In this document: positions 50,717 to 55,193 of the stretch, in pieces | Numbering within the stretch: position 1 is the first letter of the stretch | Layout: the number at the start of each line of letters is the position of its first letter | Assembly (NCBI RefSeq): GCF_002159975.1 | Contig: NZ_NFJR01000007.1 | Span: forward strand, 62,001 to 126,000 | DNA length: 64,000 nt | Direction: 5' to 3' | Origin: Barnesiella sp. An22 | Lineage (GTDB): Bacteria; Bacteroidota; Bacteroidia; Bacteroidales; Barnesiellaceae | The notes under the pieces: model-generated | Seen by the model: only the letters and a program-made list of their open reading frames with translations | What the model was told of the DNA's origin: nothing | Database searches by the model: none | Position numbers and translations under genes: made by a program

Positions 50717-50789
50717 GGTGCCATAGCTCAGATGGTAGAGCAAAGGACTGAAAATCCTTGTGTCCCCGGTTCGATTCCTGGTGGCACCA
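50717..50789 (+). tRNA. tRNA-Phe (anticodon GAA)
   Basis: A full cloverleaf: acceptor GGTGCCA/TGGCACC, D-arm GCTCAGATGGTAGAGC, anticodon stem AAGGA/TCCTT around CTGAAAA (anticodon GAA), T-arm with GGTTCGATTCC. Discriminator A; CCA not encoded. Its 3' 18 bases, plus one base beyond, form the left attachment site of the AT-rich island, and the displaced original end lies at 55175-55193. Confidence 0.98.
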
Positions 50790-50790
50790 C
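50772..50790. repeat. attL: left copy of the 19-bp island attachment site
   Basis: CGATTCCTGGTGGCACCAC, overlapping the T-arm and acceptor 3' strand of tRNA-Phe. The identical copy is at 55175-55193. Flanking bases differ on both sides, so 19 bp is the exact length of the direct repeat. Confidence 0.92.
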
Positions 50791-50814
50791 TTTGAAGAAA
50801 AGCAAAAGAAAGTA

Positions 50815-50848
50815 AAATCCTGATTTCACTTGGAAATCAGGATTTTTT
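50815..50848 (+). terminator. Terminator downstream of tRNA-Phe, inside the island
   Basis: A 12-13-bp perfect stem, AAATCCTGATTTC with GAAATCAGGATTT around a 5-base loop, followed by TTT. It replaces the native tRNA terminator, which now lies beyond attR at 55196-55233. The rest of 50849-51028 shows no gene. Confidence 0.85.
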
Positions 50849-51028
50849 GTTTTCCCCCGGCACGCAAAAAACGGCAAAATATTACCGTTCGAGGTAGAGC
50901 AAAAGGTGGAGATAAAAACTTTGTATATGAATTAGTTGGATAATTTTATAGTATTTACTGAATGGTACTAATTAGTTTCATTTAATCAAATAGCGTTAGA
51001 GCACACATACAAATCTAATGTTATATTA

Positions 51029-51526
51029 TTATAATTTAGGAATTAAACTAAACATATCTGGAGCTTTTGATGAAATATTCCAAATACCAACTTTCATCTT
51101 CTTTACAACTTTTCCTTTTCCAAAATCTAAAAGATCTTCTCTAAGAAAGATATTCAATAATTTATCTAGACTGCCCAAATTCATAGATGTAAACAAAAAT
51201 GCTTCTTCCGGATCTATTAGTTTACAATAGGCCCATAACTGACCTAGATCTCTTAAAGTAAGAGCCGTTTTTTTAGCTTCAATAAAAAATATTTTTGTTT
51301 CATTTTGTTTTTGCACTATGCCTAAAACATCTATTTGTATATCAACACCTATAGCAAGATCTATACATATACCATACTTTGCAAGAACTCTATCAAGTCT
51401 TTCTGCATGTGAATCCAATGTAATAACATTACATCCCTTATATTTATCCTGTAAATAATAATGCAACCAATTCCTCATTGGTTCATATAATTCTATTTCA
51501 TAACGGACATTCTTTCTATTCAACAT
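51029..51526 (-). CDS. PD-(D/E)XK-type nuclease, candidate restriction endonuclease
   Basis: A 165-residue protein. Residues 62-100 show the core of a PD-(D/E)XK nuclease: DIQIDVLGIV (Asp66), a strand-turn, then IFFIEAKK (Glu83, Lys85), followed by the helix LRDLGQLWAYCKLI often seen after the ExK strand. Glu12 or Glu15 could be the helix acid. It is the last gene of the five-gene cassette and overlaps the LAGLIDADG-like gene by 11 bases. As the only recognisable intact nuclease site in the cassette, it is the best candidate for DNA cleavage. No named family was identified. Confidence 0.65.
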   Translation of the reverse strand: MLNRKNVRYEIELYEPMRNWLHYYLQDKYKGCNVITLDSHAERLDRVLAKYGICIDLAIGVDIQIDVLGIVQKQNETKIFFIEAKKTALTLRDLGQLWAYCKLIDPEEAFLFTSMNLGSLDKLLNIFLREDLLDFGKGKVVKKMKVGIWNISSKAPDMFSLIPKL

Positions 51527-52406
51527 AACCTAATTCACTTGCAATCTCAATCCATGAGTTAAAATGTTTTCCCCTTATTATTTCAGGTATAAACTCATCT
51601 CCCTCACATGGATGCTGGATTTTCTTTTTAGAATATTTCTTTTTACTATCCCAATAATATCTATGCGTAATATCTGATGGAATTTTACCAGCGTTATTAT
51701 ACCCAGCAATAAGTTCATTTGAGTACATTTCCAAAGCCTGTTGTTTGTGTAATACACCAAAACCAATTGGTAAAAACTCATTAGCCCATATTTTTATTTG
51801 ATGCTCTTTTTTCCAAAAAGAAAAATTCCCTTCATTATATTTTTTACAATATCCATCTCTCATATTAGGATGAGCCCAATCTATATTTTGAACAGGTATA
51901 TCAATAGATTTTAATAAATTACAGATATCAATAACCAGTTGCCAGTTATTAGGTATTTCTAAATAAACTCTATGCTCATATTTATTAAAATAGCAATTAC
52001 TTCTTCTTATATAACCAGTTACATCAGCAAACCCTCTTAAGAAATACTTTTTCTCATCAATAGAGAAATTTAAGACTTCATTATCTAACTTTATTTCATT
52101 ATGAGTATTTGCATTTCCAATATAACGTATAATTTCCCTTATTAAGTATTCATTGTTAGGCTTAGAAAAAGAAATTATTGTACAGTGTTGATATTGAATA
52201 AACTTCAGGCTATTACCAATTAATGGTTCTATGATATTACGTATGTCAGCAATACTAGCTTTAACATATAATTTTATATCATGAAAATCTTCTGTTACTA
52301 ACTTTTTATGAGGAATGGTAATAGAGATAATGGTATCATTCATATTTCTCTGAATTTCACCGTTACCACATATCATTCCTAAAAGATATGACATCTCAAT
52401 ATTCAT
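51516..52406 (-). CDS. LAGLIDADG-like protein with altered catalytic positions
   Basis: A 296-residue protein with two LAGLIDADG-type helices: SYLLGMICGNGEI (residues 6-18) and YFLRGFADVTGYI (121-133), spaced as in single-chain two-domain homing endonucleases. The positions that normally hold the catalytic acids are Asn15 and Thr130, so cleavage by the standard mechanism is doubtful; it may be a DNA-binding or specificity protein. Residues 270-296 (GDEFIPEIIRGKHFNSWIEIASELG) form a distinct tail. It starts two bases after the 116-residue gene and overlaps the nuclease gene, so it belongs to the cassette, not to an intron or intein. Confidence 0.6.
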   Translation of the reverse strand: MNIEMSYLLGMICGNGEIQRNMNDTIISITIPHKKLVTEDFHDIKLYVKASIADIRNIIEPLIGNSLKFIQYQHCTIISFSKPNNEYLIREIIRYIGNANTHNEIKLDNEVLNFSIDEKKYFLRGFADVTGYIRRSNCYFNKYEHRVYLEIPNNWQLVIDICNLLKSIDIPVQNIDWAHPNMRDGYCKKYNEGNFSFWKKEHQIKIWANEFLPIGFGVLHKQQALEMYSNELIAGYNNAGKIPSDITHRYYWDSKKKYSKKKIQHPCEGDEFIPEIIRGKHFNSWIEIASELGYVE

Positions 52407-52408
52407 AC

Positions 52409-52759
52409 TTAATTATGACCTAATATATATCCGTGTTCAAACAAAAAATTCACAAGACTATTGTCATCAATTCTATATTTAAACTCATCAGCTCTATATA
52501 CCTTATTTTTATACATTCTATCTTGCCAATATGCTGATAAATTATTTTTATTATTAAAGTAGACTCTAAGTTCTACTCCCCATTTATCAACATCCCCAAG
52601 TTTTCGTATCCCTTGACTTGATATACTTATATTTCTATGATATTTACTATTATAGCTACTGATAAAATTAGCTATTCTTTCTTCTCTAGCTTCTGCCTCA
52701 ATAAAAATACTTTGAGGATTTTGCCTTAAAAACTGCAAAAAAGAATCATTATTATCCAT
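52409..52759 (-). CDS. Unknown 116-residue protein of the island cassette
   Basis: No family recognised. A charged protein, MDNNDSFLQFLRQNPQSIFI at the start, with a central KLGDVDKWGVELRVYFNNK strand pair and an aromatic C-terminus (FLFEHGYILGHN). No signal peptide or membrane segment. It starts four bases after the second methyltransferase stop and ends two bases before the LAGLIDADG-like start, so it is co-translated with them. It could be a small subunit of the nuclease or a control protein; there is no clear helix-turn-helix. Confidence 0.6.
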   Translation of the reverse strand: MDNNDSFLQFLRQNPQSIFIEAEAREERIANFISSYNSKYHRNISISSQGIRKLGDVDKWGVELRVYFNNKNNLSAYWQDRMYKNKVYRADEFKYRIDDNSLVNFLFEHGYILGHN

Positions 52760-52763
52760 AGTG

Positions 52764-53540
52764 TTATTTTTTTATAAAGATTAAAATATATTCGTGCACT
52801 TTATTTATTCTAAATTTATAAGGGTATCCCAAAGGACGCATATTATTATATTCATGCTGTCTATCCCATATGATAATATCATCATATATAAAACCTATTT
52901 TTTGCATTTCTGTTGCAAGGTCACTATGTAAAGGATAAAAAACGCTTTTCTTCCTTATATCCATTACATTTATTAAACAATAGGATCCCGGAATTAAAAC
53001 ATCATATACAAGCTTAAATATAGAGCCAAGCGAATTAAGAAAAATCTTATAATCGCAAATATTACCCAAATCATTGGGATTGTCAGAATAGTTTTGAATT
53101 TCCTTTCTATCTGCACTTCTTTTCATATTAAGAATATCCCAATACGGAGGAGATGTCAGACACAAATTAACTGTATTTGGATGTATATTTTTTAACTCTT
53201 CAAGACTATCACCATTAATTATGGAAATATTACAATCATCACCAATACGATGCCTTGCAAGTTCACAGAACTCTGTGGATAAATCTATTCCTATTGCAGA
53301 TCTATTAAGATTTTTTGCAGCAACAAGAGTAGAACCAATACCACTAAAAGGGTCCAATACGACTCCGTCATTTCTCGAAAACGTACTGATCAATTTTTCA
53401 CACAATGACACAGGGTATGAGGCAGGATGCTTAAATTCCTTTTCTTCTATCGTTTTATTAAAGTTTCTCCAAATACTAAAAGAATTTTGCAACCACTCTT
53501 TTCCCGTTAAATCATTACATCTTTTATCTTTATTTATCAT
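52764..53540 (-). CDS. DNA amino-methyltransferase (TSPPYW type; cytosine-N4 or adenine-N6)
   Basis: 258 residues. Motif order is X-I-IV: KHPASYPVSLCEKLIS, then the S-adenosylmethionine loop VVLDPFSGIGSTLVAA (Asp63 to Ser70), acidic GIDLS, then the catalytic LCLTSPPYW (129-134). TSPPYW favours cytosine-N4 methylation but adenine-N6 is possible. There is little room for a large target-recognition domain after motif IV (about 120 residues). The gene overlaps the first methyltransferase by 11 bases. Two methyltransferases in one cassette suggest an asymmetric target with one enzyme per strand. Confidence 0.85.
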   Translation of the reverse strand: MINKDKRCNDLTGKEWLQNSFSIWRNFNKTIEEKEFKHPASYPVSLCEKLISTFSRNDGVVLDPFSGIGSTLVAAKNLNRSAIGIDLSTEFCELARHRIGDDCNISIINGDSLEELKNIHPNTVNLCLTSPPYWDILNMKRSADRKEIQNYSDNPNDLGNICDYKIFLNSLGSIFKLVYDVLIPGSYCLINVMDIRKKSVFYPLHSDLATEMQKIGFIYDDIIIWDRQHEYNNMRPLGYPYKFRINKVHEYILIFIKK

Positions 53541-54921
53541 AATTCCATTTTTCTGATTGAATCAATCTTACCTGAGTATCAATATATTTTCTTTCTTCTA
53601 TAGTTATATTGTAAGTTTCATAAATAATATTATTCAGATCTTCAACAGCTTCATACCATTCATTACACATATATGAAATATTTTCAAGCAACTTTACTAT
53701 ACTAATAACTTTTGTAAAAGTACCAGTATTAATAATCAAAGGAATCTTTTTTAAGTATTTCGCGTCAGCATGCATTGTAAGTTTCGAGCCATTAAAACAA
53801 AACCTCATTAAATAGTAATTACATAAACGGGAATGCAAGACTCCTAATACATAACGACACATTTTCTCATCCCCATCCGTAAAAACTGTAACTGTTTCTG
53901 AAGCCTCCATGTTCCCAGCAAAACTAGCAATTATTCCAGCTTCTGCGCTATAAATATTTTGAATAAATATTTTATTACCATTAGATGGTACTGGAACATT
54001 CTTAAATGAAAACTTTCTTATGTTCTTTCCAGCTATAGCATTAGGAGATTTTGATTTCCCTCTTCCAACATATCCTGTACAAATATCACCTAATTTTTTG
54101 TATGATGACTTTAATTTTTTATATATCTTAAAGTCATATACATTTGAAAACAACAAGATTTCATCACTAAAAAAGTTTTGAGGGACCAATGTATTTGCAA
54201 CAAACTCACCTTGACGATAACTAAAAAATTCAATATTATTATTAGGTGAATATTCGTTTGCAAGAGTTAAAACAATTTGTTCTCCCCTAACATTTTTGAA
54301 ATATGCTCCTAAATCTATTATAGATCTTATTCTTTTCTCTCTCAAAAGAAATCTTCTTAAAATACTATAAGCTGAAACATGCAAAAAGTTCTTAGGTATT
54401 ATATATGATATACCCCCACCTACTTTAACTAATTCAAAGGCCCTATATATTGCAGCTATAAAAAGATTACTACCAGAATCTTTAACATTCCTTAAAAACA
54501 AATAATCGAATGTGTTTATCGTTATGTCTTTACTAATAGGTACATAAGGAGGATTACCAATTACAAAATCAACTTTTTCCCTTAGCCCAATCTTCTTTAA
54601 TACAATATCCCCACTATTTGATAAAGAATCAACAATATGAATATTGGAAACACCACTATTCTTCTTACAAAAATCAACCGCTCCTTTATCAATATCTGAA
54701 CCATATAAATTATTATATCCTAAACACTTAGCAGAAATAATAAAATTTCCAGTGCCACAACAAGGATCCAATATAGATGCATTGATTGGAATATTTAAGA
54801 ATTTAATTATTTTCAAAGACAAATCAACATCTGTATAATATATTCCATCACTTTTTTTTTTAGCAGTCAAAAGAGATGTTTCATATTCCTTGCTTTTTTT
54901 AGAATATTCGGTTATTTCCAT
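53530..54921 (-). CDS. N6-adenine DNA methyltransferase, gamma class (TaqI/Eco57I-like)
   Basis: A 463-residue protein. Motif X-like KKSDGIYYT (residues 22-30), motif I ILDPCCGTGNFIISAK (Asp52 to Phe60), SDIDKGAVDF, and the catalytic VIGNPPYV (Asn123-Tyr126), in gamma-class order X-I-IV. The C-terminal half (about 260-440) looks like a TaqI-type target-recognition domain. First gene of the cassette; a possible -7 box TATATTTG lies at 54994-54987. Base composition is far more AT-rich than the host genes, showing recent transfer. Confidence 0.88.
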   Translation of the reverse strand: MEITEYSKKSKEYETSLLTAKKKSDGIYYTDVDLSLKIIKFLNIPINASILDPCCGTGNFIISAKCLGYNNLYGSDIDKGAVDFCKKNSGVSNIHIVDSLSNSGDIVLKKIGLREKVDFVIGNPPYVPISKDITINTFDYLFLRNVKDSGSNLFIAAIYRAFELVKVGGGISYIIPKNFLHVSAYSILRRFLLREKRIRSIIDLGAYFKNVRGEQIVLTLANEYSPNNNIEFFSYRQGEFVANTLVPQNFFSDEILLFSNVYDFKIYKKLKSSYKKLGDICTGYVGRGKSKSPNAIAGKNIRKFSFKNVPVPSNGNKIFIQNIYSAEAGIIASFAGNMEASETVTVFTDGDEKMCRYVLGVLHSRLCNYYLMRFCFNGSKLTMHADAKYLKKIPLIINTGTFTKVISIVKLLENISYMCNEWYEAVEDLNNIIYETYNITIEERKYIDTQVRLIQSEKWNYDK

Positions 54922-55174
54922 AACTAGATTGCACTAATAATCCATACTTAATAATAAGATATAATATACCAAGATAAACACTATGACAAATATATACAAA
55001 TTATTCCTATTAATAATGCTTTTATCTTACTAAAAACATTATTCCCCTTGCGAAAAAAAGCCTTCTACATAACCTTGTACAAAATACAGCAAGCCTCCGG
55101 TGGTGCAATAGCGGGAGATTACGTCTTTAGCTAAAAAATATATCAAAGATATTCAGCTACTTATCGTTAGATTA
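54922..55174. other. Upstream region of the island cassette
   Basis: 253 bases without an intact gene. It carries a likely -7 element (54994-54987, minus) about 65 bases before the first methyltransferase. A higher-GC patch at about 55065-55135 stands out from the island and may be a relic of another sequence; a minus-strand frame through it has no recognisable similarity. Confidence 0.45.
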
Positions 55175-55193
55175 CGATTCCTGGTGGCACCAC
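55175..55193. repeat. attR: right copy of the 19-bp attachment site
   Basis: CGATTCCTGGTGGCACCAC, identical to the tRNA-Phe 3' end at 50772-50790. It is the displaced original tRNA end. The preceding base is A here and T in attL; the following base is C here and T in attL. Confidence 0.92.

Follow-up and report, generated by a model that had tools for sequence, protein, structure and literature searches.

A LAGLIDADG-fold protein with replaced catalytic acids and an adjacent PD-(D/E)XK nuclease as a putative two-subunit restriction endonuclease in Barnesiella sp. An22

Analysis of a 64,000-nucleotide stretch of Barnesiella sp. An22 DNA (contig NZ_NFJR01000007.1, positions 62,001 to 126,000; hereafter the window) revealed a minus-strand operon of five genes that includes a LAGLIDADG-fold protein whose catalytic acids are replaced (P0001), followed directly by a small protein with the residue pattern of a PD-(D/E)XK nuclease (P0002). 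The genes are arranged in the order P0005-P0004-P0003-P0001-P0002, with neighbours that overlap or nearly touch, and the first two encode DNA methyltransferases (Table 1). On the basis of sequences and predicted structures we consider it likely that P0001 and P0002 constitute the restriction endonuclease in a system that resembles Type II and has two separate methyltransferases. A more specific proposal, favored with somewhat less confidence, is that the pair represents a natural class of restriction enzyme in which a catalytically dead LAGLIDADG subunit would provide all of the recognition and a separate PD-(D/E)XK subunit would do all of the cutting, possibly as two copies docked on the pseudo-symmetric halves of the LAGLIDADG protein. 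The module as a whole is conserved and is probably a functional restriction system with a domesticated LAGLIDADG reader.

The gene of P0001 had been singled out in an original prediction made from the letters of the window alone, which described a LAGLIDADG protein with Asn and Thr at the metal-binding positions. The open reading frame is real, and lies on the minus strand, which that prediction left unstated. The two helices that it had recognized, SYLLGMICGNGEI and YFLRGFADVTGYI, are both present and form helices 3–15 and 116–130 in the AlphaFold2 model (predicted local distance difference test score, pLDDT, 91.5; predicted template modeling score, pTM, 0.90; calculated from a 65-sequence family alignment), terminating at Asn15 and Thr130, respectively. 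The structural comparison that it had proposed bears out the fold. With this model Foldseek returned 54 Protein Data Bank (PDB) chains at E < 0.001, those listed being all LAGLIDADG proteins, and the 50 matches listed by VIA-align are without exception LAGLIDADG proteins or WhiA (Z 9 to 14.7). The best of them are PI-SceI (Z 14.7, 185 residues aligned, 3.4 Å), I-Tsp061I (14.6), I-DmoI (13.3) and WhiA (12.9), and in these top matches the aligned span covers about 160–190 residues, so that P0001 shares with PI-SceI, I-DmoI and I-Tsp061I the pseudo-dimeric fold over most of the protein. A profile–profile comparison (hhalign) of the P0001 family with 12 archaeal intein LAGLIDADG domains carrying Asp or Glu in both motifs gave a probability of 96.2% (E 2.5e-9) and placed Asn15 and Thr130 on the catalytic acids, while the controls, a reversed profile and P0002, gave E values of 0.21 and 0.39. 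The two-fold alpha-beta-beta-alpha-beta-beta-alpha core with paired LAGLIDADG helices that defines the superfamily is thus found in P0001 by predicted structure and by hhalign, and the protein is confidently predicted to be a two-domain, pseudo-dimeric LAGLIDADG fold. The last 57 residues are modeled as an extension that is largely irregular apart from short helices. P0001 itself had no significant match in Pfam, NCBIfam or PADLOC, although 13 of 65 relatives match Pfam Hom_end weakly (best E 0.004), and a PDB sequence search with P0001, A1 and A2 found no significant match.

The acids expected at position 8 of the two motifs, which mark a LAGLIDADG homing endonuclease as an enzyme, are missing throughout the P0001 family. 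Homologous loci were collected from species-representative genomes (69 loci), 66 of which supplied full-length proteins that together with that of the window make 67 sequences, with identities to the window protein from 97% down to 44%. Thr130 and Asp128 are present in all 67 and Asn15 in 64; the other three, the archaeal (Thermoplasmatota) L063, L065 and L066, carry Lys at position 15 while keeping Thr130 and the catalytic residues of P0002. Because the same replacements recur across the homologues, the loss of the catalytic acids is ancestral to the family and not a decay of the window copy. The ratio of nonsynonymous to synonymous substitution rates (dN/dS) with respect to the closest relative is 0.07 for P0001 (0.145 for P0002), and P0001 is therefore under strong purifying selection. 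Relatives that keep the acids in the same gene neighbourhood would have pointed to a decayed copy in the window, but none turned up: apart from scraps with E values of 0.002–0.008, only known members were recovered when profiles were run against 395 genomes from the window's phylum, 292 from that of L063 and 291 from the class to which L018 belongs. Within the 395 genomes a convincing match was seen only in the window's own genome, which shows that the family is rare, and yet it spreads over at least 13 named phyla, Thermoplasmatota included, and reaches small Lactiplantibacillus plasmids and gut phages. A homing endonuclease that has decayed, or that invaded recently, and that has no host function would account for a LAGLIDADG fold that has lost its acids; set against identical replacements over this range of phyla, the low dN/dS, the constant partner gene and the absence of an intron or intein, it has a vanishingly small probability, and simple decay of the window copy is ruled out by the residue counts and the dN/dS. 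In two of the loci the genes themselves are damaged: at L067 (3636-5013) the nuclease pair and a C5 methyltransferase are broken by frame changes, through decay or assembly error, and at L070 (5544-5898) P0001 remains only as a fragment.

The conservation is not evenly distributed along P0001. The segments predicted to face the DNA are more conserved in the C-terminal half (RRSN, RVYxE, IDwaHPNmRD, FWKKEHQiK) than in the N-terminal half, with a mean top-residue frequency of 0.81 vs 0.65 (p 0.0007), which suggests that the C-terminal half would read the DNA. Invariant polar residues are densely clustered on the sheet of this half, and these could instead belong to an active site of a different kind. 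Thus, P0001 might itself be a nuclease or nickase acting through other conserved residues, for example H179-P-N181-x-R-D184 and K199-K-E-H202-Q, with P0002 left to cut the other strand, after the example of BtsI and BspD6I, whose large subunits read the site and nick one strand alone. Size and gene order also parallel BtsI, which has two methyltransferases and subunits of about 38 kDa (BtsIB) and 19 kDa (BtsIA), as computed from the concentrations given in PMC2909958. We regard this arrangement as unlikely, since both metal-binding acids are absent, the core of the model is LAGLIDADG throughout, no nuclease family (PD-(D/E)XK, HNH or other) was detected in P0001 by the Pfam, NCBIfam and PADLOC scans, and an intact PD-(D/E)XK nuclease next door in every locus makes it less necessary. 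Nicking with other residues, offered as one of two options by the original prediction, finds no support; the other, a domesticated homing-endonuclease fold that would serve DNA recognition, is favored by the fold and the conserved loss of the acids.

That neighbouring nuclease had been overlooked in the prediction. The AlphaFold2 model of P0002 (pLDDT 94.1) places Asp66 just before strand 67–73 and Glu83 and Lys85 at the end of strand 76–85, in the pattern of a PD-(D/E)XK core (D66, E83-x-K85) with a RecB-like QxxxY motif (Q96xxxY100). Six residues (Glu10, Asp66, Glu83, Lys85, Gln96 and Tyr100) do not vary in any of the 64 sequences compared. The structural matches are modest, with the nuclease domain of PaqCI first (Z 8.9, chain residues 2–160), followed by FokI (7.4) and the small subunit of R.BspD6I (7.0), and for this reason the identification leans on the motif pattern; taken together, structural scores and residue pattern are persuasive for a PD-(D/E)XK nuclease. 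No family match was obtained for P0002 in Pfam, NCBIfam or PADLOC, while 15 of its relatives match weakly to Pfam YhcG_C, another PD-(D/E)XK nuclease. The protein has no separate recognition domain, and the P0001/P0002 pair holds a single recognizable catalytic site, that of P0002, where a Type IIT enzyme is expected to have two different ones.

The two genes are inseparable in the loci collected. P0002 lies directly 3' of P0001 in 66 of 66, at most 6 nt apart or overlapping, with overlap in 55. Among 72,556 plasmids and 50,697 phages, P0001 and P0002 match exactly the same four records, in which both are annotated as hypothetical protein, and matches of P0002 in plasmids, phages and viral contigs occur only in records that also carry P0001. 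In the gut phages L076 (622-4165) and L077 (609-4110), with hosts from Anaeroplasmataceae and Lachnospiraceae, the whole module, composed of a fused EcoRI-type/C5 methyltransferase, the LAGLIDADG subunit and the nuclease, is located near one genome end. Type II systems commonly include a control gene, and P0001 could be imagined as an operon regulator, either a control protein or a transcription factor resembling WhiA, leaving P0002 to restrict alone. A typical control protein is nevertheless a short helix-turn-helix (HTH) protein, and Pfam detected no HTH family in P0001; P0002, moreover, has only 165 residues to provide both recognition and cleavage, and the pair is never parted despite the exchange of methyltransferases. 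WhiA, the well-known domesticated LAGLIDADG protein of bacteria, has likewise lost the metal-binding residues (PMC3781837), and is the precedent for this role, which we nonetheless consider improbable for P0001. As a transcription factor, WhiA contacts DNA by way of a C-terminal HTH domain; P0001 belongs to a methyltransferase–nuclease operon.

A closer inspection of the gene surroundings showed that P0001 is a free-standing gene with methyltransferase genes beside it wherever upstream DNA is available and is found in no intron or intein, just as had been predicted for the window. All 73 loci with complete upstream DNA carry, next to P0001 and P0002 on their upstream side, an adenine methyltransferase together with an N4-type or a C5 methyltransferase, or a fusion of the two, and in all of them methyltransferase and endonuclease genes are thus genetically coupled as in Type II systems. 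The methyltransferases (METHYLTRANSFERASES) are TaqI-type adenine plus N4-type in 52 loci, TaqI-type plus C5 in 7, EcoRI-type adenine plus C5 in 6 and fused EcoRI-type-C5 in 8; the viral contig L081, which lies beyond these 73, carries EcoRI-type plus C5. This arrangement changes at least five times on the P0001 tree while the P0001/P0002 pair stays constant, and no other candidate restriction gene common to these loci was seen. Since C5 enzymes replace P0004 in other loci and the protein has an SPPY motif, its product is read as N4-methylcytosine (m4C), and one adenine plus one cytosine methyltransferase per system is probably the simplest reading. The constant adjacency would also fit a P0001 that guides or assists the methyltransferases as a shared specificity subunit and has no part in a nuclease. 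EcoRI-type and C5 enzymes are, on the other hand, normally self-sufficient in recognition, and methyltransferases of four families (TaqI-type, EcoRI-type, N4 and C5) are exchanged while P0001 remains with P0002, which leaves this role marginally less probable than that of a regulator.

For the preferred assignment of P0001 and P0002 as subunits of one endonuclease, we infer a physical complex in which P0001 recognizes the target sequence and P0002 cleaves. The pseudo-dimeric P0001, its catalysis lost in an ancestor, would bind an asymmetric site by its beta-sheet saddle, mostly with the C-terminal half; P0002 would dock on it and cut at or beside the site. A double-strand break could arise from two copies of P0002 on the pseudo-two-fold P0001 or from two successive nicks, and P0005 (adenine) and P0004 (probably N4-cytosine) would each protect one strand of a site that may stay the same or similar despite the exchange of methyltransferases.

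Several points weigh against this scheme. The Z scores of 7 to 9 obtained for P0002 fall within the range that the tool gives for unrelated matches, and Foldseek yielded no match at E < 0.001. The distance correlation between P0001 and P0002 in a mirror-tree comparison (0.79) is not above those with the methyltransferases (0.87–0.89), so that co-evolution adds no support for the complex and was dropped as an argument for it. That P0004 is a cytosine enzyme we infer rather than observe. Finally, some LAGLIDADG relatives bind DNA by another domain, and because WhiA does so through its HTH, the saddle of P0001 need not be the reader (PMC3781837).

Among the closest known enzymes are the heteromeric Type IIT enzymes BtsI, BsrDI and BspD6I, which combine a large recognition subunit with a small catalytic one and in which an asymmetric site is served by two methyltransferases (PMC2909958, PMC4081073). 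The small subunit of BspD6I is weakly resembled by P0002, as noted above; the large subunits differ, since theirs have a catalytic site and nick one strand, whereas P0001 is a LAGLIDADG protein without a recognizable active site. PaqCI (Type IIS), whose N-terminal nuclease domain P0002 resembles, carries its nuclease and its recognition domain on a single polypeptide, and LAGLIDADG is absent from the paper that describes it (PMC10201449). LAGLIDADG homing endonucleases differ from P0001 in that here both acids are replaced, there is no intron or intein, and the gene is accompanied by a PD-(D/E)XK partner within a restriction-modification cassette. A further parallel in design is man-made, namely the engineered fusions of inactive I-SceI with PvuII or MutH, in which a LAGLIDADG reader is joined to a restriction-type nuclease (PMC3857828, PMC4081073); these are single chains, while the present system is natural, made of two proteins and provided with its own methyltransferases.

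GIY-YIG and HNH nucleases are common to homing and restriction enzymes. LAGLIDADG is nowhere among the PD-(D/E)XK, HNH, GIY-YIG, PLD and half-pipe themes named in a 2014 review of Type II enzymes (PMC4081073), goes unmentioned in a 2025 restriction-modification review, and in the literature searched for LAGLIDADG together with restriction-modification no such system is described, a search that did not extend to REBASE, where putative annotation is possible. If the proposal is true, the family would show how a defence system came to read DNA through a homing endonuclease fold, as a natural counterpart of the laboratory I-SceI fusions, and would connect homing endonucleases with restriction-modification in a way that those reviews do not list. 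Since reading and cutting would be divided between two proteins and the methyltransferases can be exchanged, the system is also a possible scaffold for sequence-specific cutting or nicking.

Table 1. Position of the genes, catalytic-site codons and island boundaries in the window
Feature	Coordinates	Strand	Description
P0001	51516..52406	minus	296 aa; LAGLIDADG-fold protein, Asn15 and Thr130 at catalytic-acid positions; putative DNA-recognition subunit
Asn15 codon	52362..52364	minus	position 8 of first LAGLIDADG helix; read from sequence, profile-aligned to catalytic D/E
Thr130 codon	52017..52019	minus	position 8 of second LAGLIDADG helix; read from sequence, profile-aligned to catalytic D
P0002	51029..51526	minus	165 aa; PD-(D/E)XK nuclease, start overlaps P0001 end by 11 nt; putative cleavage subunit
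P0003	52409..52759	minus	116 aa; optional accessory protein
P0004	52764..53540	minus	258 aa; N6/N4-type DNA methyltransferase (TSPPYW), base specificity probably m4C
P0005	53530..54921	minus	463 aa; Eco57I/TaqI-type N6-adenine DNA methyltransferase (NPPY); Eco57I E 1.3e-17, N6_Mtase E 4e-15, TaqI_C E 8e-4
tRNA-Phe	50717..50790	plus	last 19 nt form one island end
19-bp direct repeat CGATTCCTGGTGGCACCAC (att-like)	50772..50790	plus	copy inside tRNA-Phe 3' end
19-bp repeat, second identical copy	55175..55193	plus	start of homology to L002

The cassette occupies a 4.4-kb AT-rich island (window 50717-55193), integrated at tRNA-Phe between exact 19-bp repeats and, like P0002, overlooked in the original prediction. 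The GC content of the operon is 28.6% vs 53% in the flanks, and another Bacteroidales genome (L002) is 91.7% identical over 4242 bp, with the homology beginning at the 19-bp repeat. No integrase was seen among the open reading frames between the repeats, and the island therefore probably depends on help from elsewhere for its mobility. A promoter scan gave no signal above shuffled expectation. PADLOC and NCBIfam returned nothing convincing for P0003, whose family is fast-diverging and present in about half of the systems (window 52409-52759; L061:4925-6001; L026:5520-5984; L011:4837-5973), where it occurs as a free-standing protein, in a 155-aa variant form, or as a fusion with P0004 (L011) or with a NOV_C domain.
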